Source: Chloroflexota bacterium
GTDB taxonomy: Bacteria > Chloroflexota > Anaerolineae > Anaerolineales > UBA11858
Reading direction: 5' to 3'
DNA length: 33,235 nucleotides
Assembly (NCBI GenBank): GCA_030608465.1
Contig: JAUWEC010000006.1
Location: forward strand, 1-33,235
The notes under the pieces were generated by a model, which saw nothing but the letters and a program-made list of their open reading frames with translations, had not been told where the DNA came from and did not search any database. Position numbers and translations under genes: made by a program. The number at the start of each line of letters is the position of its first letter. Position 1 is the first letter of the stretch. Positions 490-14,155 of the stretch are shown piece after piece.

Positions 490-972
490 CACAGAATCGT
501 CCTTACTGAAAGAATCAATTACTGATGATTATTATCTTTTGTTATCAAAATTTCGATCATAGATGTGAGTAATAGACAAATTATATGATATCTCTTCACT
601 TGTTACAATTGGCTAGAGCAGGAACACTGTTGTGGAGGTTTTTCCCAAGAGCACCTCTTGCCCCCGGTTGGGTTACTGCCATTATGATACTATTCTAGAA
701 TGGGCAGCAAATCTGAACTCGTAATAATTATTGTTAGTAGTGGATAGTTTAGGATAAGGATACAAAGATCAATTTTAAGGATAATTATTGCGTAAACTGA
801 CTGAATAGTTTTCTATGCTATCAATCATTTTAGGAATGGCTTATAATTTATCTAGAATTGAAAAACCAATTTTATTTTGCGGCTATTGATTCAAATTTAT
901 AACTCTGAAAGAAAACAAAATCCAGGGTTGCGATTTTCTTAAGTTCGAGTTTTTTATCTCTTGGAGAAGTCG

Positions 973-1923
973 ATGAAGGTTTCAGTGATTATTCCTGTAT
1001 ACAATGAACGCGAGACATTATCAGAATTAGTTAAAACTCTGTTTAATACCCTGCGAGACCAACCGTATAGTTGGGAAATCCTTTTCATTGATGATGGGAG
1101 CAGCGATGGGAGTTTTCAGCAATTGAAATCTATTGCAGAAGAAAATCCTGAGCATATTATTGTGATTGCCTTGCGCAGGAACTTTGGCCAAACTGCAGCT
1201 ATCGCGGCTGGAATTGATTATGCTGCGGGTGATATTCTTGTCCTTATGGATGCAGATATGCAAAACGATCCCACCGACATTCCTCTTTTATTGAAGAAGA
1301 TTGATGAAGGGTACGATGTAGTTAGCGGTTGGAGAGTTAACCGGAAAGATAAAATATTCACCCGGATTATTCCATCAAAAATTGCTAATAAACTTATCTC
1401 ATGGGTGACGGGAGTACATTTACATGATTATGGCTGTTCCCTAAAGGCTTATCGAAAAGACATTCTGACTGGTTTTCGCTTGTATGGTGAAATGCATCGC
1501 TTTATTCCAGCTTATGCAGCTCATGTTGGAGCGAGGATAACAGAAGTTGAAGTAAAGCATCACCCACGAAGGTCTGGAAAAACCAAGTATGGTTTGGAAC
1601 GGACTTTAAAGGTTGTCTTGGATCTTTTCACTGTAAAGTTTTTGATCAGTTATTCTCAAAACCCCCTGTATCTATTTGGAGGACTTGGATTATTCTTGTT
1701 GCTGGGTGGTATGGGTATCTTGTTTTTCCTATTGATCCGCCGCGTAGGTTTAGGTATATCTCCCTTTTCGTCTCCCCTCTTCCCTGCCTCAATTATGATT
1801 GTATTGATGGGTTTTCAATCAATCTTAATGGGGCTTATTGCTGAGCTGCTGGTACGCACATATCATGAAGCTCAAGATAAACCTACCTATGCAATTCGTA
1901 AAATAATCAACGAGGATAATTGA
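973..1923 (+). CDS. Glycosyltransferase family 2 (dolichyl/undecaprenyl-phosphate sugar synthase type) with two C-terminal TM helices
   Basis: VSVIIPVYNERETLSELV, IDDGSSDGS, LMDADMQNDP, GCSLKAYR, hydrophobic C-terminus. Track start TTG 961 overlaps the Shine-Dalgarno GGAG; ATG 973 preferred. Confidence 0.88.
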   Translation: MKVSVIIPVYNERETLSELVKTLFNTLRDQPYSWEILFIDDGSSDGSFQQLKSIAEENPEHIIVIALRRNFGQTAAIAAGIDYAAGDILVLMDADMQNDPTDIPLLLKKIDEGYDVVSGWRVNRKDKIFTRIIPSKIANKLISWVTGVHLHDYGCSLKAYRKDILTGFRLYGEMHRFIPAYAAHVGARITEVEVKHHPRRSGKTKYGLERTLKVVLDLFTVKFLISYSQNPLYLFGGLGLFLLLGGMGILFFLLIRRVGLGISPFSSPLFPASIMIVLMGFQSILMGLIAELLVRTYHEAQDKPTYAIRKIINEDN

Positions 1924-3071
1924 TGCGAATATTGGTTTTAACGCATGAATTTCCCCCGGTGGGAGGAGGAGGAGGTCATGTCGCGAAAGATCTTTGTCAA
2001 GGTCTATCGGAATTAGGTCATGAGATTAAGATTCTTTCTGCTGGTATCCTGGGTGGTATCCACGGGGAAACTGGAAGTTCTGAAAAAGAATATGAAATAA
2101 TTAGGGTGCCCACTCTGAGAAAGGACCCTTCCAGGGCAAGCATATTGGCCATGGTCTCTTACATTATCAATTCGGTTTTCAGGGGATTTTTTCTTTGTAA
2201 GCGTTGGAAACCTGAAGTGATCCATGTTCATTTTGCGGTTCCCGCTGGTCCGACAGCTTTGGTGCTGTCAAAATTGACTGGAATTCCTTATCTGTTAACC
2301 GTGCACTTAGGTGATATTCCTGGCGGAACACCGGATAAAACTGACCGGTGGTTTCGGTTTATTCAGCCATTTACCTTTCCCGTCTGGAAGCATGCTAAGC
2401 AGGTCATTGCTGTAAGTCAGTTTACTCGCAATTTAGCCCAAAACCACTATCAAGTTCCAATAAAAGTAATCCATAATGGAGTGGATATTCGGAAATTTAA
2501 ACCTGAAAAAATTGCTGCCCACAACCCTCCCAGGATTATTTTTGCGGGGCGTTTTGTACCCCAAAAAAATCCAATTTTAGTTATTCAAACTTTGGCTGAA
2601 CTAGGTGAATATGCGTGGGAGTTAGTCATGTTGGGAGATGGTCCGTTGTTTAAAGAGACGAAAGAGGAAGCCAAAAAACATGGATTAGAGGATCGAGTAA
2701 AATTTTCTGGTTGGGTACACCCTGATGATGTAAAGAAGGAATTTCAGCAAAGTGATATCTTATTTTTACCCTCAAAATCAGAGGGTTTACCTGTTGTAGG
2801 TGTCCAAGCTCTGGCATCTGGTTTGGCTTTAATAGTCAGTGATATTGGAGGTTTTATGGATATTGTTGAGCATGGGAAAAATGGGTACCTATGTGATACA
2901 GGTAGTTTGGAATCATATATCGCAAAGTTAAAGATGTTACTTTCAGATGAAATTCTACTGTCCAAATATCGTCAAGAATCACTCATTAAATCCAAGGAAT
3001 TTGATATTAATCGTATAGTTTCTTCTTATGAAACAGTCTTCATGGAAGTTGTCAAGAATGAAATTCTCTAA
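1923..3071 (+). CDS. Glycosyltransferase family 4 (GT-B)
   Basis: N-terminal LTHEFPPVGGGGGHVAKDL, IHNGVDIRKFKP, FAGRFVPQKNP, LPSKSEGLPVVGVQALASG. ATG overlaps the upstream stop (TGATG). Confidence 0.9.
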   Translation: MRILVLTHEFPPVGGGGGHVAKDLCQGLSELGHEIKILSAGILGGIHGETGSSEKEYEIIRVPTLRKDPSRASILAMVSYIINSVFRGFFLCKRWKPEVIHVHFAVPAGPTALVLSKLTGIPYLLTVHLGDIPGGTPDKTDRWFRFIQPFTFPVWKHAKQVIAVSQFTRNLAQNHYQVPIKVIHNGVDIRKFKPEKIAAHNPPRIIFAGRFVPQKNPILVIQTLAELGEYAWELVMLGDGPLFKETKEEAKKHGLEDRVKFSGWVHPDDVKKEFQQSDILFLPSKSEGLPVVGVQALASGLALIVSDIGGFMDIVEHGKNGYLCDTGSLESYIAKLKMLLSDEILLSKYRQESLIKSKEFDINRIVSSYETVFMEVVKNEIL

Positions 3072-4011
3072 ATATAGAAATCTAATAAAAATAATTGGAT
3101 CTCTGGTATCCCTGATCTTAATTGTGTCTCTGATGTTACAACAAGATTGGGATATCGCATTTTCTTTGCTGAATCAATTATCAATAATTAGTCTGTTAGC
3201 TGTATTTCTTCTCTATTTCGGAGGTACTCTATTAAATGGAATACGCTGGCTGATATTATTAAATATTGCAGAAATTGAAGTGCCCCTTATCGAGGTATTC
3301 AAAATTGCTTATGTGGGATCATTTGTGTCAAATTTTTTACCCTCAACAATAGGGGGAGATGGTGTTAGATTTGCTAGCTTACTAAGGTACGATACTAGGA
3401 AAAGAATATGCCTTGCTTCAATTATTATCGATAGGCTCCTGAATATTCTAGTTATGTTTCTTATCTTACCGTTTGCGTTTTTTACTTTTGTGCCTGAAAT
3501 TGTGCAATTATTTCAAAAACTATTCGATGATGAAAATGAATTTGGATCACGAATAATCCAATTCTCTCAAGTTAATATTCTGGGCGTATTCATTCCCAAG
3601 ATTAAAAATCAGATCCGAGAAACAATTTCGTTGATCGGAATTTATTGGAAAAATCCAAAATCCTTGTTCTTGGCTTTATTTGTTGCGGTTATTGCTTTAA
3701 TGTTTTCCTTTAGTGGAACATACCTAATGGCAGTGAGTTTAGGGATTAAGGTGAGCATATTTGAAGTTATTCAAATAGCATCAATAGTATATATCTTCGC
3801 CTTAATTCCCATTTCCTTTAATGGATTTGGGATTCGAGAACTTGTTATGACCACATTATATGTATCTCTGGGATCTACGATTATAGAGGCAACATTGTTA
3901 GCCTTAATTACAAGATTATTCATGGTAATAATATCTTCTGTTGGGGCTTTTTGGATGCCTCAGCTAATGTCAGATGTTGATCAAAAACAAATCCAAATTG
4001 CTGAACTTTAA
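3058..4011 (+). CDS. Lysylphosphatidylglycerol synthase TM region / UPF0104 (YbhN-type) integral membrane protein
   Basis: Multi-TM protein with NFLPSTIGGDGVR and ISFNGFGIRE motifs. Track start 3028 would overlap the upstream gene by 44 nt; ATG 3058 gives a short overlap. Confidence 0.8.
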   Translation: MKFSKYRNLIKIIGSLVSLILIVSLMLQQDWDIAFSLLNQLSIISLLAVFLLYFGGTLLNGIRWLILLNIAEIEVPLIEVFKIAYVGSFVSNFLPSTIGGDGVRFASLLRYDTRKRICLASIIIDRLLNILVMFLILPFAFFTFVPEIVQLFQKLFDDENEFGSRIIQFSQVNILGVFIPKIKNQIRETISLIGIYWKNPKSLFLALFVAVIALMFSFSGTYLMAVSLGIKVSIFEVIQIASIVYIFALIPISFNGFGIRELVMTTLYVSLGSTIIEATLLALITRLFMVIISSVGAFWMPQLMSDVDQKQIQIAEL

Positions 4012-4193
4012 GAGTTAGATATTTTGTATAGATTATATTTGGCGAAGGAATATTTATAGGTACTTTTCGGGGGTTTCTATTTATGAAATATATAATGCCA
4101 AGGGTAACTAAAGCAAATAGAGGGGATTTAGCAGGCCATTAAAGAAAATATGACATTGCTCGACAATATTTATAATTCAGGGTTTGATTAAAT

Positions 4194-6104
4194 ATGATGC
4201 CTCTGTTCCAGCGGATAAAAAAATCCATCGTGATTGGGCTATTTGGTATATTGATTGTTGTCAACCTGATATATATTGTGCCCGATATGGGGTCCTTCGG
4301 CTTGGGAATACTCTCAAACCTAGACCGTACGGGAACCTGGCGTGGGGCTCGATTTGCCCGAAGTGAAAATTTTGCAGATTATATAATGTTTCTCCGGACA
4401 GAAATTCCTGATACCGGAATTGTAGTCATACCTCCCGCAGAAGTCAGCATGTGGACGCTTTCCAACACGCATGCCATGCAGTTTTTCCTTGATCCGAGAG
4501 AAATTAAAAATTGTACGACCATCGATTGTGGTGCTTATTATATAGGAGGAGAAAATACCTATATCCTGATCATGGGCTTAAGTCAATTTCCGGGCGAAAT
4601 TATTCAAAACCAGACGGTAAACATCCGGATGCACAATGATACCTGGGGTGTCTATGGTCCCGAAGATGGTCTCGGGAAAGGGTCACCACCTGTTGATCTC
4701 ACCAGGTTTGAAATCTTGGCAACGGATATATTCCTTCCATTATTCTCCTTCATCTTATTGATATTAATTGGTTATTATTCCGCTTCCATGATACTTCCCG
4801 GATTACCACCCTGGTCTAGATTGGGAATTGGTTTTGGAGTTTTAATGGGGGTGTTTTCAGTTTCCGGGTACATATTTCTTTACCTGGGTTGGATTGAAAA
4901 CTTAGCCCTTTGCTTTTCCTTGTTATTTGGTTTATCTGTGATAATCCTGGTTGCTGCTTTGTTAACAAAGAAAGTACACTTGGGCATTATTACTGATTTA
5001 TTTGTTTGGGGTTCAACGCTGGAAATTTGGACAATCTTAATTGTTGTTTTGGGAGGTTTATACATCTTTCTAGCTGTTGGTGCAGGATTTCATGCAACCG
5101 ATTCCTATGTATTATGGGGTGCAAAAGGTGCAGGGCTCGCTTCCGAGGGCTTAAGTGGAGTGATCACGCGAGGAACGAATACGACGGCATATCCTTTACA
5201 TATTCCTCTGCTGATTGGGATGTTAATGGATTCTTTTGGAGACACACTGCCAGCCTCAAAGTTAATCTTCCCTATTTACTACTTGAGCCTTTTGTTGGTA
5301 GTGTATGGATTTTTGAAAGAAAGATCAGATTCCTTGCTGGCTGGTCTTAGCACGCTTGTCTTGGCAACAATGCCCATCCTGGCTCGCCATGCCAGGGTAG
5401 GATATGCAAATCTGCCCCTTACTTTTTACCTGGTTGTTGGGGTGATTTTATTTGTCCGGGCGCTATCTGAATCACATTCAAATTCTCAGCGTGTGTTATG
5501 GGTGGTGTCGGGTGCATTCTTTGCGCTGGCGATTTGGACGCGCCCAGAAGGTTTGTGGTTAGTGATCGGGATAATGATTGCTGGTCTAACCTGGCTATTC
5601 TTGTCGGGAGAGTTTAAAAATGTCCACAAAGTTTGGTTGGTAGGTATAATTCCACTTCTATTATGGGTGGGGTGGAAAGTGACCAGCAGCAGGTTTTATG
5701 TTGGCATTGATCCAGTGGAAGGAAATATAGAAAAACTCGTCCATCAATTCTCATTAAGTAATTTTCACCAAGGGGAGTTTATCCTGATCCTGAGATATTT
5801 CTTGAGACTGCTATATGATTTTCAAACTTGGGGAGCGGTTGGCCTTGGCTCTCTTATTGCGATCACAGTATTTTTCTTGTCGGCTCATAAACCGGACAGT
5901 AAACTTTGGATTTTATGGATGACATCTGTCTCCAGCCTTGTGGTCATCATTGTTATTTATTATGTATTTGCATTTGATCAATTACATGATATGGATTGGT
6001 GGTTAGGTGGAGGATTCAGCCGAATGATCATGCCCGGGATGACTTTATTGTGGGTTGGTGTTGCCTGGTTGTTACTGCAATCTAAAATACCAACAGGAAA
6101 TTAA
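4194..6104 (+). CDS. Large polytopic membrane protein, GT-C-like core behind an N-terminal extracytoplasmic domain
   Basis: TM helix, ~150-aa soluble region with two Cys (KNCTTIDCGAYYIGG), then many TM helices with GFHATDSYVLWGAKGAGLASEG and WTRPEGLW-type motifs. Confidence 0.7.
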   Translation: MMPLFQRIKKSIVIGLFGILIVVNLIYIVPDMGSFGLGILSNLDRTGTWRGARFARSENFADYIMFLRTEIPDTGIVVIPPAEVSMWTLSNTHAMQFFLDPREIKNCTTIDCGAYYIGGENTYILIMGLSQFPGEIIQNQTVNIRMHNDTWGVYGPEDGLGKGSPPVDLTRFEILATDIFLPLFSFILLILIGYYSASMILPGLPPWSRLGIGFGVLMGVFSVSGYIFLYLGWIENLALCFSLLFGLSVIILVAALLTKKVHLGIITDLFVWGSTLEIWTILIVVLGGLYIFLAVGAGFHATDSYVLWGAKGAGLASEGLSGVITRGTNTTAYPLHIPLLIGMLMDSFGDTLPASKLIFPIYYLSLLLVVYGFLKERSDSLLAGLSTLVLATMPILARHARVGYANLPLTFYLVVGVILFVRALSESHSNSQRVLWVVSGAFFALAIWTRPEGLWLVIGIMIAGLTWLFLSGEFKNVHKVWLVGIIPLLLWVGWKVTSSRFYVGIDPVEGNIEKLVHQFSLSNFHQGEFILILRYFLRLLYDFQTWGAVGLGSLIAITVFFLSAHKPDSKLWILWMTSVSSLVVIIVIYYVFAFDQLHDMDWWLGGGFSRMIMPGMTLLWVGVAWLLLQSKIPTGN

Positions 6105-6205
6105 CCCTTATCGAAAAGCAAATAATTCTGGATCAAGTTCCTGAGAGGATTATCGTAACTGGATGATGCAATAATGGGGGAATAACCAGTAAACTCCAAT
6201 TTTTT

Positions 6206-8068
6206 TCAGTATAACGGCCAGAGCAGGGGGAGCAGCAGAATTGTGATTAACATGGAGATCAAAATCAGTGGAATACCGACCCTTAAATAGTCTCTGAAGC
6301 AGTAATTGCCTGATCCCATCACCAGTGTGTTGACCGGGGATGCAACCGGCGAAGCATATGCCGTGGAGGCTGCAATGGCAACCAGCATCAGGAATGCCTG
6401 GGGCTGATATCCCAAGCGGAGAGCCAAAGAAAGCGCAATGGGGGCGATCAGAACAGTTGTGGCTGTGTTGGAAATCACCTGGGTAAATAGAGCAGTAATC
6501 AGGAACAAGGTTGCCAATGTTGGCAATTCCCCCAGTCCTCCCAGTGTGGATGCCATCCAATCTGAACCAACCTCTACTAGGCCAACTTTTTGTAAGGCGG
6601 TAGTCATCGGCAGCATGCCGGCGATCAGAATAATGCTTTTCCAATCCACACTATTATAGGCGTCCTTCATATCCAGACAGCCAGTGATGATCATTAAAAA
6701 TGCGGCGATTAACGTTGTGGTGGCAACCGGTAGCCAATTTGTAACCAGAAAAATTAACATTCCCGCCAAAATCAAGGATGATAGGATCATTTTTGAGCGG
6801 GGAGGGGTACCCTTCAACGCTTCCGGTTGACCCACAACCACAAAGTCACGGCGCTGATCAGTAAGCGCACGAATATTTTTCCAGGGTCCCTGAACAAACA
6901 AGGTATCGCCAAACTGAAGTTTTGTTTCTTTGAGAGATAAACTGCCCTCAGCCCCAGGGCGGTTGATTGCTAATACCGTTAATTGGTAGAGGCTGCCGAA
7001 TCGCGCTGATACGAGAGTTTTTCCTATCAACCGGGAGCGGGGAGGGAGTAGAATTTCAGCTACGCCTACTTCATTATTGACTAAAGATTTCTGGTCTTTT
7101 GCTTCTGCAGGCTGCACACCAAGCTGGAGGGTTGCAGCAGCGTGGGTGATGTCATTGATTTTTCCTTGACAGATCAAGATGTCATTTGGATAAACCACTG
7201 TATCGGGAGATAGTTTGACACTTACAGAGTCATTTTCCAGGAGGTTTAGACGATTATCTCCTACCCTTGATCCGGAACGCAGGATTTCCAGTACGGTCAC
7301 TTCAAAAGTGCTTCGCAGATCGCTTTGTAAAAGAGTTTTTCCCGCCAGGGGGGATTGGGTTCGTACGCGCAGACGATAAAGATCTTCTGGAAGTTTATAG
7401 ACTCGGACCAATTCTTCGGGGGAATCCACTCGCTGCAGTTTCGTCCTTGGTTTATGGTCTGGAAGAAGCCAGCGGCTGGTGAGAGCCAGGAAAAGGATCC
7501 CGGAAATAAGCAGCGTCAATCCAATAGGTGTGAAATCGAAAAATTGAAAAGGAGTGTAGCCATTTTCCAGCAGGAAATCGCTGACGATGATATTGGGAGG
7601 TGTTCCGATTAACGTCATTGCACCGCCAAGCAGCGATCCAAAGGAGAGCGGGATTAATAATTTTGAAGGATTTATGCCTTTTTTTCGGCTGATACTGATG
7701 ACTGCCGGCGCCATTACTGCTACTGTCCCGGTATCGCTGATAAAACCGGAGAGTAAAGCAACAGTCCCCATGATCAAAACCAGCAGCCGGAATTTGCTCT
7801 CTCCCGCAAAATGAACGATCTTTTGACTGATGGTATCCGCCAGGCCGGTTTCCATCACGGCGCCTCCGACGACAAAGAGGGCGGCTACCGTGATCACGAT
7901 CGGGCTGGAAAAACCTGTCAGGGCCTCATCAGGGGTGAGGATTCCGCTCACCATTAAACCGATCACCACTCCCAGGGCAACCAGATCCACCTGCAGCCAT
8001 TCGGTGATGAACAGCAGTATCGCTCCAGCTAATAAACCAATGGTGATCCACATCTCAAGAGTCATCAT
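6206..8068 (-). CDS. SLC13 / DASS-family permease with two internal RCK_C (TrkA-C) domains
   Basis: Two hydrophobic halves with repeated SDTGTVAVMAPAVISIS and SNTATTVLIAPIALSLA motifs, flanking two RCK_C-like segments (SPLAGKTLLQSDLRSTFEVTVLEILR...; SRLIGKTLVSARFGSLYQLTVLAINR...). Confidence 0.88.
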   Translation of the reverse strand: MMTLEMWITIGLLAGAILLFITEWLQVDLVALGVVIGLMVSGILTPDEALTGFSSPIVITVAALFVVGGAVMETGLADTISQKIVHFAGESKFRLLVLIMGTVALLSGFISDTGTVAVMAPAVISISRKKGINPSKLLIPLSFGSLLGGAMTLIGTPPNIIVSDFLLENGYTPFQFFDFTPIGLTLLISGILFLALTSRWLLPDHKPRTKLQRVDSPEELVRVYKLPEDLYRLRVRTQSPLAGKTLLQSDLRSTFEVTVLEILRSGSRVGDNRLNLLENDSVSVKLSPDTVVYPNDILICQGKINDITHAAATLQLGVQPAEAKDQKSLVNNEVGVAEILLPPRSRLIGKTLVSARFGSLYQLTVLAINRPGAEGSLSLKETKLQFGDTLFVQGPWKNIRALTDQRRDFVVVGQPEALKGTPPRSKMILSSLILAGMLIFLVTNWLPVATTTLIAAFLMIITGCLDMKDAYNSVDWKSIILIAGMLPMTTALQKVGLVEVGSDWMASTLGGLGELPTLATLFLITALFTQVISNTATTVLIAPIALSLALRLGYQPQAFLMLVAIAASTAYASPVASPVNTLVMGSGNYCFRDYLRVGIPLILISMLITILLLPLLWPLY

Positions 8069-8230
8069 AATCTCGCGTTGAGGAGAATCCAGATCCTAAC
8101 TCGTTTTAGTGTACCAAATCTTTTCCCGGAAAGAAAGAATGGCCAGACAACCAGGAAAGGGAGAACTTTCGTGCCCTCAGTATTATAGCCTGCCTGGCTC
8201 ATAATTCTAATCAAGTGTTTTCAAACAACG

Positions 8231-8261
8231 AGCCTCCTTTTGAACCCATCAAAAGGAGGCT
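8231..8261 (-). terminator. Perfect 12-bp stem, 7-nt loop hairpin downstream of the beta-helix lipoprotein gene
   Basis: AGCCTCCTTTTG-aacccat-CAAAAGGAGGCT just beyond the stop at 8301 (minus orientation). U-tract is poor, so terminator function is tentative. Confidence 0.5.
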
Positions 8262-8300
8262 GCTCTTTGTGCTTTACCGTTACAAGCATCTTGTTGAATA

Positions 8301-11300
8301 TTATTCTACCTGGGTGATTTGCAGTCCTTCTGCCAACACCCAGCCCTGCAGGCCGCCGGGTTCCATCCGGATTTTTACCCACGACTGATCTTCATTCCAA
8401 TTCAGTAGATAAACAGTCTGGTTGACCCCCAGGTTGCCAATCACCTGTTGATCCTCCCCAGGGGAGAGTTGGATTGGTAAACCTTGTTTTGAAACCGCAG
8501 TCGCCGCAAGGGCCATGGCGTCCGGTGACCTGTCTAGCGAGCGGACATAAATGTCGTCCAGGCAGAGCTCGGTTCCTGCCACGGACCGCAAACCAGCAAG
8601 TCCGCGTTGGCTGTGTTCCAGGGTTTGAGTTAACATTAATCGGCCATTAAGATAGGTGCGGACGGTGTTTCCTTCCACTTCAGCCCGGAACTGGTACCAT
8701 TCCCCCTCTTCAAAAGTCGTTTGAACTCCCTCCCAGTTGGTGCACTCCTCCCGGCTGCAGAAGATCTGGGTGATCTGTATTTTTTCCGATCCGATGTCGA
8801 TTGAGTGCTGGGAGTATACCTCAAACTCCCGCAGGCGAAGCCCAGCACCTTCGCCGCCAACCAGCCGCAACCGGGCATCCACCTGGTAGTCCTGCCAAAG
8901 CCGGGAACCAAATTCGGTCCCGGTTCCAGCTTCTTCACCATACCCGCAGTAAATCATCCGACCATCTTCCTCCACCAATTCAAAGGAATTATAGGAAGGC
9001 CAATGCCTAAAGACGCCCAGCTCCGTTTCAAAATCCAACCCTAGTAAAGTTCCCAGAAAAGGTGTTATTTCCGGGGTATAGACCTCGGGGGGATTTATTT
9101 GAGAAGCCTCAGTGGGAGTGATATTTACCAGAACATAGACGGGTAAGGATAGTAAGACCCCATCCGCCTCCACCGTACAGGTGATTGTTGTGAATCCTGT
9201 AGTCTCTGCTGTGACTAGTCCAGCATCATTTACCCCGGCAATAGCAGAATCCTCACTGCTGCAGGACTGCTGGTAGGTATCTGGATCAGCCACATATCCA
9301 GAGGTTGTACGGGCAGTGATTTTTAGCTGGGCATCCTCACCAGGACTGAGGAATAGGTTGGCACCATGACCAGCGACATTTGAGGTGATGAACATCCTGG
9401 ATAAAGTATTATCCGGGGATGGGAATGGGAAATCAGACCTGAGACCCATATCTACAAAGTTAAGATCTTCAAATCCCAGGTCATAAGCCGGGGAATCAAA
9501 ACGCAGGCGGTAGTCACCATTTTCAGGATCGATAAACAAGGGATCCCCAATTACTGAATTCTGGTCAAAACGGCCTTCCTCCAGCGCCTGCCAATCCTGC
9601 AGTGTGGTCACGCCAGGGATACCGGTAACCAGGTAGATGCCCTGCTTATTAAAGAAAAGGTTTTGATCAGACTGTCTCAGCAGAGAGCCTTCGTGTCCAA
9701 AACGGAACTTATAAATGGGTCCTTCATTGTGATAAAAGATATTGCCCACCACGTCAATGTCATTGGGAGGTGTATCAGATGCGGTTTGAGCTTCTCCACT
9801 AACTGAGAGGCTGTATTCCCGTGGAAAGATTACGCTGGTTAATTCCACATCATTAAAGGCCAGGATGTTGTTCTGGACCATTGTTTCAATATCCGCGGCA
9901 TCAATGACTCCATTGGTATACCCTCCACCCTGGAGCCCCATCTTCTCCACCAGATTGTTGGTGATGGTGTAACCCCGTGAGCCCTGGTCCATATAGATCC
10001 CCCCCTGGATGGAGAATAAGCCAAAGACATCATGAACGTAATTATTGTGGATTTGATTATCCGGACCAGCCCCTCCAAAGTATATCGGTCCCATATCCTG
10101 GCTGTCTTGCAGTACGTTGTGTATCTCATTAAATTCCACAAGGTTGTCTGAACCCGTAGATCTGTCTAGGTCACCAGTTCCCCCGATCCCGATTGCTCCT
10201 TTTGGAATATCGTGAAGGAGATTATGGGCGATGCGGTTATGGGAGCCGATGGAAATCTCAATCCCCCGTGCGGAAGGGACAATTGTTCCCGTGTGGTGGA
10301 TATGATTGTTGAGGATCAGATGACCATTGCTTTCGTTGACATCGCCCCAGTTCCCTTCAATTCGGATCGCCGATCCGCCTGTATATTGGATGAGGTTATT
10401 TTTTATGGTGATTCCCTGCACTCCATTTCCCCTGGTATAAATCGCCAGGCCGCCAACTTGCTGGAAACGATTTCCGTCAAAAGTGATTTGTTGAGCGTGT
10501 TCGAGATAAATGGCAAAGGCGGTTTCGTTCTCCGTAGTGAGATCCCGTACATCGGTATATCGAAAATCTAATCCCTGAAAGGTGATGTTTTTCACTGGAT
10601 CAGATTCGTTCCCTACCAGGTTGATCAGGACTCTGGTCTGGGGTGCAATGATGGTTTGATTCTCAATGGGGAGCGCCAGAGGCCAGTAATACAATTTATC
10701 GCCGTCCAGAAAGAACTCTCCCGGCGCGTCCAGGAGATCAAGGGAATTCTGGATAAAGTACTCTGTCCCCGGACCCAGCATATCTACCCAACGGGGGGAG
10801 ATCCCCATTAGGTTGGCCATGATCAAATTATCTTGATAGGAAAGTTCGCTGATCTTGCCGGGGTACGTCCGCCAGTGAAATTCGCCATGCATCCCGCCAT
10901 TCCAGGTCACCATTTCCAAGCGGGACCAATCAGTCAGGACCGGAAATGTTTCCGGGTCAAAATAAAAGCCTTCGTACTCATGTTCCGGATAGGCACTGGC
11001 AATCTTCAAGTAGGCGTGTTTCCCGGGGCTGATGGCTTTCGGATCCCGATTGGGATGTCGGGCAGGGACGCTGGTTTCACCGTTCTCGTAAAGGACTGAG
11101 AACTCCTTATCTACAGTTGTTGTGTAGATATTTTTGTCGTCAGGTTCCCAATCCATGAGGGTGATCCCTCCGCTAATGATCGGGGTCTCACCGGGGTAAT
11201 TCTGGTAGATGATCTGGAAACCGTTCTGTCCGGAATCATTTGCCCGAAAGTCCAGCGGCTTGTAGACTCCCTCCCGGATCAGGATCTTGATATCCTCGGT

Positions 11301-11546
11301 TTGGGGATGGAAATTTCTTCTGGTCTGCAGTTCATTGCGGGCTTTGACAATGGTGTGGAAGGGGCCATCGGTGCCAACCCCATTGGGTTCTGGCAGGGTG
11401 CCGCTCCACTCGTCATTGCCCTCTGGTGATACGTAGTAGGTATAGGGTAAGATTTCAGCGCTTTCTGATAGAGATGTTTCCCCTTCCGCGCAGGCACTCA
11501 GTATGAGGGAGAAAAGAAGAATGATCCAGAGAGTTTTGCCTTTCAT
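8301..11546 (-). CDS. Secreted lipoprotein with right-handed parallel beta-helix, Ig-like, LamG/DUF1080-like and C-terminal SH3-like regions
   Basis: Lipobox LILSACAEG; YVSPEGNDEWSGT start typical of parallel beta-helix proteins; repeated NNxIxxxGxxAIxI coils; Ig-like TAETTGFTTITCTVEADG; ENTVRTYLNGRLMLTQTL; SH3-like NQTVYLLNWNEDQSWVKIRMEPGGLQGWVLAEGLQ. Confidence 0.85.
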   Translation of the reverse strand: MKGKTLWIILLFSLILSACAEGETSLSESAEILPYTYYVSPEGNDEWSGTLPEPNGVGTDGPFHTIVKARNELQTRRNFHPQTEDIKILIREGVYKPLDFRANDSGQNGFQIIYQNYPGETPIISGGITLMDWEPDDKNIYTTTVDKEFSVLYENGETSVPARHPNRDPKAISPGKHAYLKIASAYPEHEYEGFYFDPETFPVLTDWSRLEMVTWNGGMHGEFHWRTYPGKISELSYQDNLIMANLMGISPRWVDMLGPGTEYFIQNSLDLLDAPGEFFLDGDKLYYWPLALPIENQTIIAPQTRVLINLVGNESDPVKNITFQGLDFRYTDVRDLTTENETAFAIYLEHAQQITFDGNRFQQVGGLAIYTRGNGVQGITIKNNLIQYTGGSAIRIEGNWGDVNESNGHLILNNHIHHTGTIVPSARGIEISIGSHNRIAHNLLHDIPKGAIGIGGTGDLDRSTGSDNLVEFNEIHNVLQDSQDMGPIYFGGAGPDNQIHNNYVHDVFGLFSIQGGIYMDQGSRGYTITNNLVEKMGLQGGGYTNGVIDAADIETMVQNNILAFNDVELTSVIFPREYSLSVSGEAQTASDTPPNDIDVVGNIFYHNEGPIYKFRFGHEGSLLRQSDQNLFFNKQGIYLVTGIPGVTTLQDWQALEEGRFDQNSVIGDPLFIDPENGDYRLRFDSPAYDLGFEDLNFVDMGLRSDFPFPSPDNTLSRMFITSNVAGHGANLFLSPGEDAQLKITARTTSGYVADPDTYQQSCSSEDSAIAGVNDAGLVTAETTGFTTITCTVEADGVLLSLPVYVLVNITPTEASQINPPEVYTPEITPFLGTLLGLDFETELGVFRHWPSYNSFELVEEDGRMIYCGYGEEAGTGTEFGSRLWQDYQVDARLRLVGGEGAGLRLREFEVYSQHSIDIGSEKIQITQIFCSREECTNWEGVQTTFEEGEWYQFRAEVEGNTVRTYLNGRLMLTQTLEHSQRGLAGLRSVAGTELCLDDIYVRSLDRSPDAMALAATAVSKQGLPIQLSPGEDQQVIGNLGVNQTVYLLNWNEDQSWVKIRMEPGGLQGWVLAEGLQITQVE

Positions 11547-11638
11547 GGTGAGATCTCCATTAAGGGTGAGATATGGCAGGAAACCTGCCAGGATATATTT
11601 GGTTTGTCTGTATCAAAGGAAAGATGGGTATAACCCCC

Positions 11639-11667
11639 AGTATAAATAAATCCACATTATTTGTCAA
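11639..11667 (-). promoter_or_regulatory. Sigma70-type promoter for the beta-helix lipoprotein gene
   Basis: Minus strand TTGACA - N17 - TATACT (TTGACA at 11667..11662, TATACT at 11644..11639), oriented toward the ATG at 11546. Confidence 0.65.
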
Positions 11668-11699
11668 ACTTGGTCCGGCAGAATGTTCAGGCTTTAAGA

Positions 11700-11783
11700 T
11701 CTGGATAAATTTGGGGATAAACAAGGAATAGTTGTGGATAACTGGCCTGATCTGGGGATAAACTGGGGATTACTGGAGGATAA
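11700..11783 (-). repeat. Array of six TTATCC-core direct repeats, helically phased, upstream of the promoter
   Basis: On the + strand GGATAA starts at 11703, 11715, 11736, 11756, GGATTA at 11767, GGATAA at 11778; spacings 12, 21, 20, 11, 11. Confidence 0.65.
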
Positions 11784-12672
11784 ATAACATCCCGATGTGG
11801 AAAATGATGGCAATGAGAAGACTTCCTCCCCAGAGAATATAAGCCAGGACCCGGTTTTCCTCGTTCCTGAAAAGGAACAAACCTAAAACAAGATTTCCCA
11901 GATACGCCGTGGTATTGATGATTGGGAACAGGATCAGGCGCACACTCTCCAGAGGTTCGTGCGGTATCCCCCCTGGAGTAAACCCAAGCGATACTTTCTC
12001 CCGGGATGGGATGACCAGCAGCGTCCAAATCAGCAGAGTGATGTTTAAAACCGCCCCGGCCAGGAATATCCAGAGCAAAGTTTTCCTGCTGGAGATTTCG
12101 GTCAGGATAAGAGAAGGTCGGGATGATTGAGTGGTCAGTAGAGAAATTGATCCTAGCTCAGTGAGGGAATTGTACGAGAGAATAAAGTCTTCTACCTGGA
12201 GGGGTGAGATAGCGAAGTACCTTTCCCCGGCGGCGATAATCACCAATCCTTTCACTCTCGATGCCATGAACTCTACCGAAGGTCCCCGCAGAAAACGTCT
12301 GAATCCAATTACCGAACCAGGCCAGCGGATCAATGGGGGTTGAGGTGGAATTTCCAGATCTTCCGCTTTGTGGACCCATCTCACCTGGTCCATGGGTATA
12401 TTTTCTGATCTCCATCCCCACTGCAGTTGAATGCCCCCTCTCTCCAGGGAATATCCGGAGCGGTGCAGTGCATACAATCGATAAATCAGATAGGGAACCG
12501 TGATCAGGAAAAGCAGAATCAGGGCCAGATAAGGCAGCAGTTGAGGGGCAACTTGGACATTTGATGTGCCCCAGATGCCCCAAGCTCCTCCGCTGGAAAA
12601 GAACAAAATCAGCAGGAGGTGGACAATTGTACCAGTCCGTTTAGGGGGGTAATATACTCTGCTCTCCTCCAT
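11770..12672 (-). CDS. Membrane protein with bacterial PH-like domain
   Basis: Two N-terminal TM helices, then GGIQLQWGWRSENIPMDQVRWVHKAEDL...AAGERYFAISPLQVEDFI (bPH-like), then two C-terminal TM segments. Confidence 0.65.
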   Translation of the reverse strand: MEESRVYYPPKRTGTIVHLLLILFFSSGGAWGIWGTSNVQVAPQLLPYLALILLFLITVPYLIYRLYALHRSGYSLERGGIQLQWGWRSENIPMDQVRWVHKAEDLEIPPQPPLIRWPGSVIGFRRFLRGPSVEFMASRVKGLVIIAAGERYFAISPLQVEDFILSYNSLTELGSISLLTTQSSRPSLILTEISSRKTLLWIFLAGAVLNITLLIWTLLVIPSREKVSLGFTPGGIPHEPLESVRLILFPIINTTAYLGNLVLGLFLFRNEENRVLAYILWGGSLLIAIIFHIGMLFILQ

Positions 12673-13018: not shown

Positions 13019-14155
13019 ATGTTTAGAAAGTATTTTCCTGTTTTAGCTATTTTCATTGTCTTGGCGCTCGCCCTTACTGCTTGTGGTACTACTGAACAAC
13101 CCCCTGCTGGCGAACCAATCACAGTAGTTGAGACAGTCATTGTAACGGTTGAAGTTCCTGTTGAAGTTCCCGCTGAACCAGTTGAAGCTGCTCCAGTAGC
13201 AGAAGATATCTTCAGTCGTGTCCTGGACCGCGGCAAAGTTGTCTGTGGAGGCCGCACAGATTTAGCCGGGTTTGGGATGTTAGATGCAGATGGAAAAAAC
13301 ATCGGATTTGATATCGATTTTTGTCGGGCTGTGGCTGCCGCAGTATTTGGTGATCCCGATGCGGTTGAGGTTGTTCCTCTCACAGCAGCAGATCGGGGAC
13401 CCGCTCTCCAGACTGCTGAAGTAGATATTTTATCCCGCAACGTAACCTGGACCTCAAGCCGTGATGCTCAGTGGGGGAATTTTACCAATGTCATGTTCTA
13501 TGACGGCCAGGGCTTTATGATCCGCAAGGATAGTGGTATTACATCAACAGATGATTTTGATGGCGCGACAGTATGTGTGACCAGCGGTACCACGACGGAA
13601 CAGAACTTGTCAGATTTCTTCCGCCAGAACGAAATGGAATATGAAGCTGTCATTTTCGAAGAAACACCTGCAGTCTACAGTGCGTATGAAGAAGAACGCT
13701 GCGATGTTACCACAAGTGATAAATCCCAATTAGCTTCTGTCAGAAGTGGTTTCGCTGATCCTGAGGCTCACCTCATTCTTGATATCACTATTTCCAAAGA
13801 ACCGCTCACTCCTGCCGTTCCGCAAGGAGATGATACCTGGTTCGATATCGTAAAATTGGTGTCATTTGCTCTGATCAATGCTGAGGAGTTAGGAGTTACC
13901 CAGGCAAATGTTGAGGAAATGAAGAGCAGTACTAATATCAACGTTCTGCGTCTCTTGGGAGAAGAGGGTGACTGGGGTTATACTGATTTAGGTCTGACAG
14001 CTGATGCGTTAGCAAATGCCATCCTTGCAGTAGGAAACTATGGAGAGATTTATGACCGCTACATGGGTCCGGAAGGAATGTCATTCACACTCCCACGTGG
14101 TCCCAATAATTTATGGTCTAACGGCGGCTTGATTTACGCCCCGCCAGTTAAATAA
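13019..14155 (+). CDS. Polar amino-acid ABC transporter substrate-binding protein (family 3 SBP, AapJ-like), lipoprotein
   Basis: Lipobox LALTACGTT; ILDRGKVVCGGRTDLAGFGMLDADGKNIGFDIDFCRAVAAAVFGD; SD AAGGAGG at 13007-13013 points to ATG 13019 rather than track start 13001. Confidence 0.92.
   Translation: MFRKYFPVLAIFIVLALALTACGTTEQPPAGEPITVVETVIVTVEVPVEVPAEPVEAAPVAEDIFSRVLDRGKVVCGGRTDLAGFGMLDADGKNIGFDIDFCRAVAAAVFGDPDAVEVVPLTAADRGPALQTAEVDILSRNVTWTSSRDAQWGNFTNVMFYDGQGFMIRKDSGITSTDDFDGATVCVTSGTTTEQNLSDFFRQNEMEYEAVIFEETPAVYSAYEEERCDVTTSDKSQLASVRSGFADPEAHLILDITISKEPLTPAVPQGDDTWFDIVKLVSFALINAEELGVTQANVEEMKSSTNINVLRLLGEEGDWGYTDLGLTADALANAILAVGNYGEIYDRYMGPEGMSFTLPRGPNNLWSNGGLIYAPPVK

Follow-up and report, generated by a model that had tools for sequence, protein, structure and literature searches.

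An array of DnaA boxes, kept in many relatives, was found at the 3' end of a bPH_5 gene in the analysed window, a stretch of 33,235 nucleotides from an uncultured Chloroflexota bacterium of the order Anaerolineales. By analogy with known systems, and with a probability of roughly 60%, we consider it to be a DnaA-binding cluster outside but close to the replication origin oriC, which would sequester DnaA or alter its state. The array is located away from the likely oriC and persists in relatives, which argues that it probably serves replication timing, rather than the control of the lipoprotein gene found downstream of it in this genome. The relevant features of the window, by coordinates, are the following.

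6206–8068, minus strand: CitMHS transporter gene, directly 3' of the array in the closest relative
about 8142–11679, minus strand: species-specific insert of ~3.5 kb, holding the lipoprotein gene, its promoter and a GGGTATAACCC dyad, but not the array
8301–11546, minus strand: lipoprotein gene, encoding a 1,081-aa beta-helix protein, downstream of the array and on the same strand as bPH
11639–11667, minus strand: promoter, TTGACA (11667–11662), N17, TATACT (11644–11639), 36 bp from the nearest core
11700–11708, minus strand: DnaA box 4, TTATCCAGA, one mismatch, 12 bp from box 3
11712–11720, minus strand: DnaA box 3, TTATCCCCA, one mismatch, 21 bp from box 2
11733–11741, minus strand: DnaA box 2, a perfect match to TTATCCACA and 20 bp from box 1, conserved at the same position in most members of the genus
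11753–11761, minus strand: DnaA box 1, TTATCCCCA, one mismatch
11764–11772, minus strand: weak box, TAATCCCCA, over the bPH stop codon and one helical turn from box 1, retained in several genus members
11775–11783, minus strand: weak core, TTATCCTCC, within the bPH coding sequence
11770–12672, minus strand: bPH_5 (PF10882) gene, coding for 300 aa and conserved next to the array, with its stop codon at 11770–11772

The array comprises six minus-strand cores at 11703–11783, five TTATCC and one TAATCC, spaced by 12/21/20/11/11 bp. On the plus strand, these read as GGATAA at 11703, 11715, 11736, 11756 and 11778, and GGATTA at 11767–11772. All six phased cores and their coordinates had been listed in the original prediction and were confirmed. 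The same is true for box 2, where plus-strand TGTGGATAA is a perfect minus-strand DnaA box, and for the one-base variants at boxes 1 and 3; box 4 is a further box with one mismatch. The array straddles the 3' end of bPH, and two cores overlap this end, as had been noted for a PH-like gene. The prediction had also held that no coding feature explains the repeats. This may not apply to the core at 11778, which sits in F-I-L codons shared with related bPH proteins, so that coding may explain it.

The hexamer TTATCC is over-represented in the window as a whole (50 observed, 26 expected). A comparison with shuffled sequence, proposed as a check on the repeat density, favoured the array: at least five TTATCC on one strand within 90 bp did not occur in any of 1,000 dinucleotide shuffles of the window, the maximum being four, reached once. 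Several DnaA boxes are thus grouped closely together, above chance and outside the putative oriC described below, as in extra-oriC clusters. The spacer carrying the array at bPH is 226 bp long, with 41% GC, and an Rfam search of the window gave no match. Elsewhere in the window, a block of glycosyltransferase and membrane-protein genes (961–6104) has a GC content of 0.33–0.44, below that of the rest.

The bPH gene is widespread in the order, being present in 51 of 61 genomes in one search and in 127 of 151 in another. In most relatives from the same family, and in several other families, between two and four DnaA boxes, on the same strand as bPH, follow its stop codon. The array is therefore conserved next to bPH across several families, and there it occurs without the lipoprotein. 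Among six genus members, the boxes share 87% pairwise identity and the linkers 37%. The 69 boxes from 24 bPH loci have the consensus TTATCCACA, from which each differs by at most one base, and successive boxes are spaced by exactly 21 bp in 28 of 45 cases. With a looser pattern, a pair was also found at the bPH locus in G007 and G008, where the boxes are degenerate, and near a distant bPH homologue in G021. The array at bPH was absent from members of two families (f11 and f13) and, within the genus, from G006.

The gene following the array changes between lineages. It is DUF92 in other families, and CitMHS in most other genus members, as judged from the sequence after the array. DUF92 was considered as a regulated partner and rejected, being missing from ten out of ten genus genomes, most of which retain the array. 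With a varying downstream gene and a persistent array, the constant neighbour is bPH. Judged from these sequences, the array belongs with the 3' end of the bPH gene, and not with the lipoprotein.

The main rival to a timing element is a transcriptional role of DnaA at this locus. The array would then be a DnaA-dependent operator, controlling transcription that leaves bPH or enters the downstream gene, through a roadblock, repression or activation, and tying that gene to the replication cycle. Such a role fits the position of the array, which in every case shares the orientation of bPH and precedes the next gene within the spacer; in several relatives, no more than about 10–20 bases separate the end of the last box from the downstream ATG. 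Furthermore, DnaA is a known transcription factor at B. subtilis box clusters (PMC4447404). However, the array stays while the downstream gene varies, from DUF92 in other families to CitMHS in the genus and the lipoprotein insert here, and thus no single regulated gene accounts for its conservation. Regulation of bPH from its own 3' end would also be unusual. On balance, we regard an operator as unlikely.

Box pairs with this spacing are common in the order. The pattern TTATCCMCA-N10..13-TTATCCMCA was found in 97 of 151 genomes, and its reversed control had one match in total. When gaps of 0–30 bp were allowed between perfect TTATCCACA boxes, 123 of 139 pairs (counted by hand) fell at 20–22 bp. 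Pairs at 19–22 bp from the 151 genomes, mostly fragmented MAGs in which exact-match patterns miss degenerate arrays, were merged into 124 arrays. In 60 of these, a DnaA-trio motif, marking a putative oriC, is found no more than 600 bp away; another 36 are 11–220 bp 3' of bPH, and 28, probably including origins with a diverged trio motif, are elsewhere or unresolved. The bPH-linked arrays come from six families and, by inspection, all 36 are on the bPH strand. Both main array types, with DnaA-trio and with bPH, were present in 18 genomes.

Some arrays were detected at other places. Two f13 genomes (L085, G045:C9:182758; and G069:C15:82984) carry an extra array ~29 kb from the oriC array and not at bPH, which looks as if the additional site had been relocated. 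In f11, an array follows an RmlD-like gene instead of bPH (L082, which is G113:C1:792833, and L083); in G113 this site is 237 kb from the trio motif. In addition, G140:C143:1308-1352 has four tandem TTATCCACA with a 12-bp spacing, as opposed to the usual 21 bp.

A DnaA-responsive element is supported by the agreement of the boxes in relatives with each position of the DnaA consensus, by their two-turn spacing, and by their resemblance to the three-box array at the genome's own putative oriC. The assignment of this lineage's boxes to DnaA rests on sequence, which leaves some room for an array of another protein with a DnaA-box-like motif, or for a repeat that binds no protein. We find this very improbable, because the boxes at bPH agree with the DnaA consensus in each of its nine positions, have the same orientation and spacing as the boxes beside the DnaA-trio motif, and persist while the linkers diverge.

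The putative oriC of this genome is on another contig (C79), in a 530-bp intergenic region with 33% GC (L039:4690-5219, equal to C79:13690-14218). The flanking genes, named by eye from their translations, are enoyl-CoA-hydratase-like and glucose-1-phosphate-adenylyltransferase-like. The region has a three-box array with 20/21-bp spacing (14066–14115) and, on the opposite strand, TTATCCCCA-TCCCC-TACTAAGACTACTAC, that is, a DnaA box, then a GC-rich stretch, then DnaA-trios; every genus member in the alignment retains it. This box-GC-DnaA-trio pattern occurs once in the genome (C79:13768-13794) and in 111 of 151 genomes, usually once per genome, and the features of the C79 region are conserved in both family and order. 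The dnaA gene is on contig C257, apart from the putative oriC, and its product retains the GGRDHTTV helix-turn-helix signature for box reading. GC skew was only partly useful as a test of oriC. The position of the motif coincides, or nearly so, with the best split in the complete genomes G113 and G030, and is weakly supported in G098 and G075, with a pooled Mann-Whitney p = 0.002.

The bPH gene and the putative-oriC motif are on one contig and 104–138 kb apart in six genomes of ~2.2 Mb, all from one family (f8); in our genome the two sites are on separate short contigs. The bPH array itself was considered as oriC, and rejected after the C79 site with its DnaA-trio was found. Its three-box, 20/21-bp arrangement does match that of the putative oriC, as would be expected of a chromosomal origin or of one half of a bipartite origin. 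However, no DnaA-trio, GC-rich spacer or strongly AT-rich stretch adjoins the window array, the 226-bp spacer having 41% GC. Moreover, the separate AT-rich C79 region combines the box-GC-trio with an array and is conserved in the order, and the f8 genomes carry both sites, more than 100 kb apart. An origin function of the window array is therefore highly unlikely.

The original prediction had placed the array upstream of the lipoprotein, as an activator or repressor array or a DnaA-responsive element. The DnaA-responsive part is supported and the lipoprotein part is not. The promoter is present where it was predicted, on the minus strand, and the array is 36–116 bp upstream of this good sigma-70-like promoter, a layout which today could allow DnaA to influence it. 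The closest relative, an Anaerolineales MAG (L091, JAIORG010000128.1; 92% identity over bPH), aligns with this part of the window in two blocks, positions 2-1021 of our aligned stretch with its 6884-7903, and 4560-6488 of our stretch with its 7898-9814. It follows that window positions 8142–11679 are a ~3.5-kb insert, missing from this relative. The lipoprotein gene, its promoter and the dyad are on the insert, which ends at ~11679, before the array. CATTCT is present at each of its two junctions, possibly as a 6-bp target duplication or as microhomology. A promoter-like motif, TTTGGTACACT, conserved before CitMHS in relatives, is here still upstream of CitMHS. The lipoprotein had no match in the nine other genus genomes searched, and the array is kept where the lipoprotein is missing, so that the two are not conserved together, as would be expected if the array were an operator of this gene. 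The lipoprotein was consequently rejected as the partner of the array. Its control is already contradicted as the ancestral function by these alignments, and an array dedicated to its promoter is highly unlikely.

How could a timing element of this kind work? Three boxes in the same orientation, spaced by 20/21 bp and so by two turns of the helix, and flanked at either end by weaker boxes at a distance of one turn, would place DnaA molecules on one face of the helix and allow head-to-tail oligomerisation. The proposed oligomer would parallel the one expected on the matching three-box array at the lineage's putative oriC. As neither a DnaA-trio nor an AT-rich region for unwinding adjoins the window array, it should not open the DNA. 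Presumably near oriC, it would be duplicated soon after initiation, and it would then most likely sequester DnaA or promote a change in its nucleotide state, preventing early re-initiation and so playing the part of E. coli datA or of the DnaA-box clusters of B. subtilis. That DnaA binds here, and is titrated or controlled in its nucleotide state, we infer from the types of DnaA-box cluster already known.

DnaA sites outside oriC with a role in replication timing have been described in detail for E. coli and B. subtilis. According to a review (PMC5295017) covering the work of Okumura et al. (2012), B. subtilis has DnaA-box clusters away from the origin, and deletion of all six led to early initiation, which is read there as sensitivity to free DnaA. 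Our array is similar in that DnaA boxes are grouped outside oriC. Unlike in B. subtilis, the putative oriC is usually accompanied by a single conserved cluster, known here from its sequence, with strict two-turn phasing and one orientation, and tied to one gene across families. In E. coli, the closest counterparts are datA and, with it, DARS1/DARS2. Of these, datA promotes the hydrolysis of DnaA-bound ATP and has an IHF site between its DnaA boxes. It is near oriC at a conserved relative distance, and its binding sites are kept while the spacers vary (PMC4585315); it depends on IHF, and its five boxes are spread over about 1 kb (PMC5295017). The window array is likewise a non-coding DnaA-box cluster with varying spacers, yet its strong boxes, three or four in number, share one strand and fit into about 60 bp.

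Same-orientation boxes are also found in the oligomerisation regions of oriC, where in E. coli and T. maritima they support head-to-tail oligomers of ATP-DnaA (PMC10316083). The putative oriC of our genome has an array of this kind. The window array also has its boxes in one orientation, but is not accompanied by a DnaA-trio, a GC-rich spacer or an AT-rich element for unwinding. In E. coli, the concentration of DnaA boxes near the origin is a trait favourable for titration (PMC12371093). That excess is one of regional box density, whereas here it is a single compact, phased array.

Taken further, many Anaerolineales may have one dedicated datA-/DARS-like site, made of an oriC oligomerisation array without the unwinding motif and kept close to oriC beside bPH. 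ATP-DnaA would assemble on one helical face of it, and its nucleotide state or free amount would be reset after initiation. We put this forward as a tentative proposal, at somewhat less than even odds.

A literature search returned no paper combining Anaerolineae and DnaA box, and no replication-timing element described for the group. If the proposal above is true, the site beside bPH would be such an element. Two nearly identical DnaA arrays, of which one has an unwinding element and the other does not, offer a clean comparison. Together, the conserved phased array and the well-marked putative oriC would make the control of initiation testable in the large and mostly uncultured Anaerolineales.
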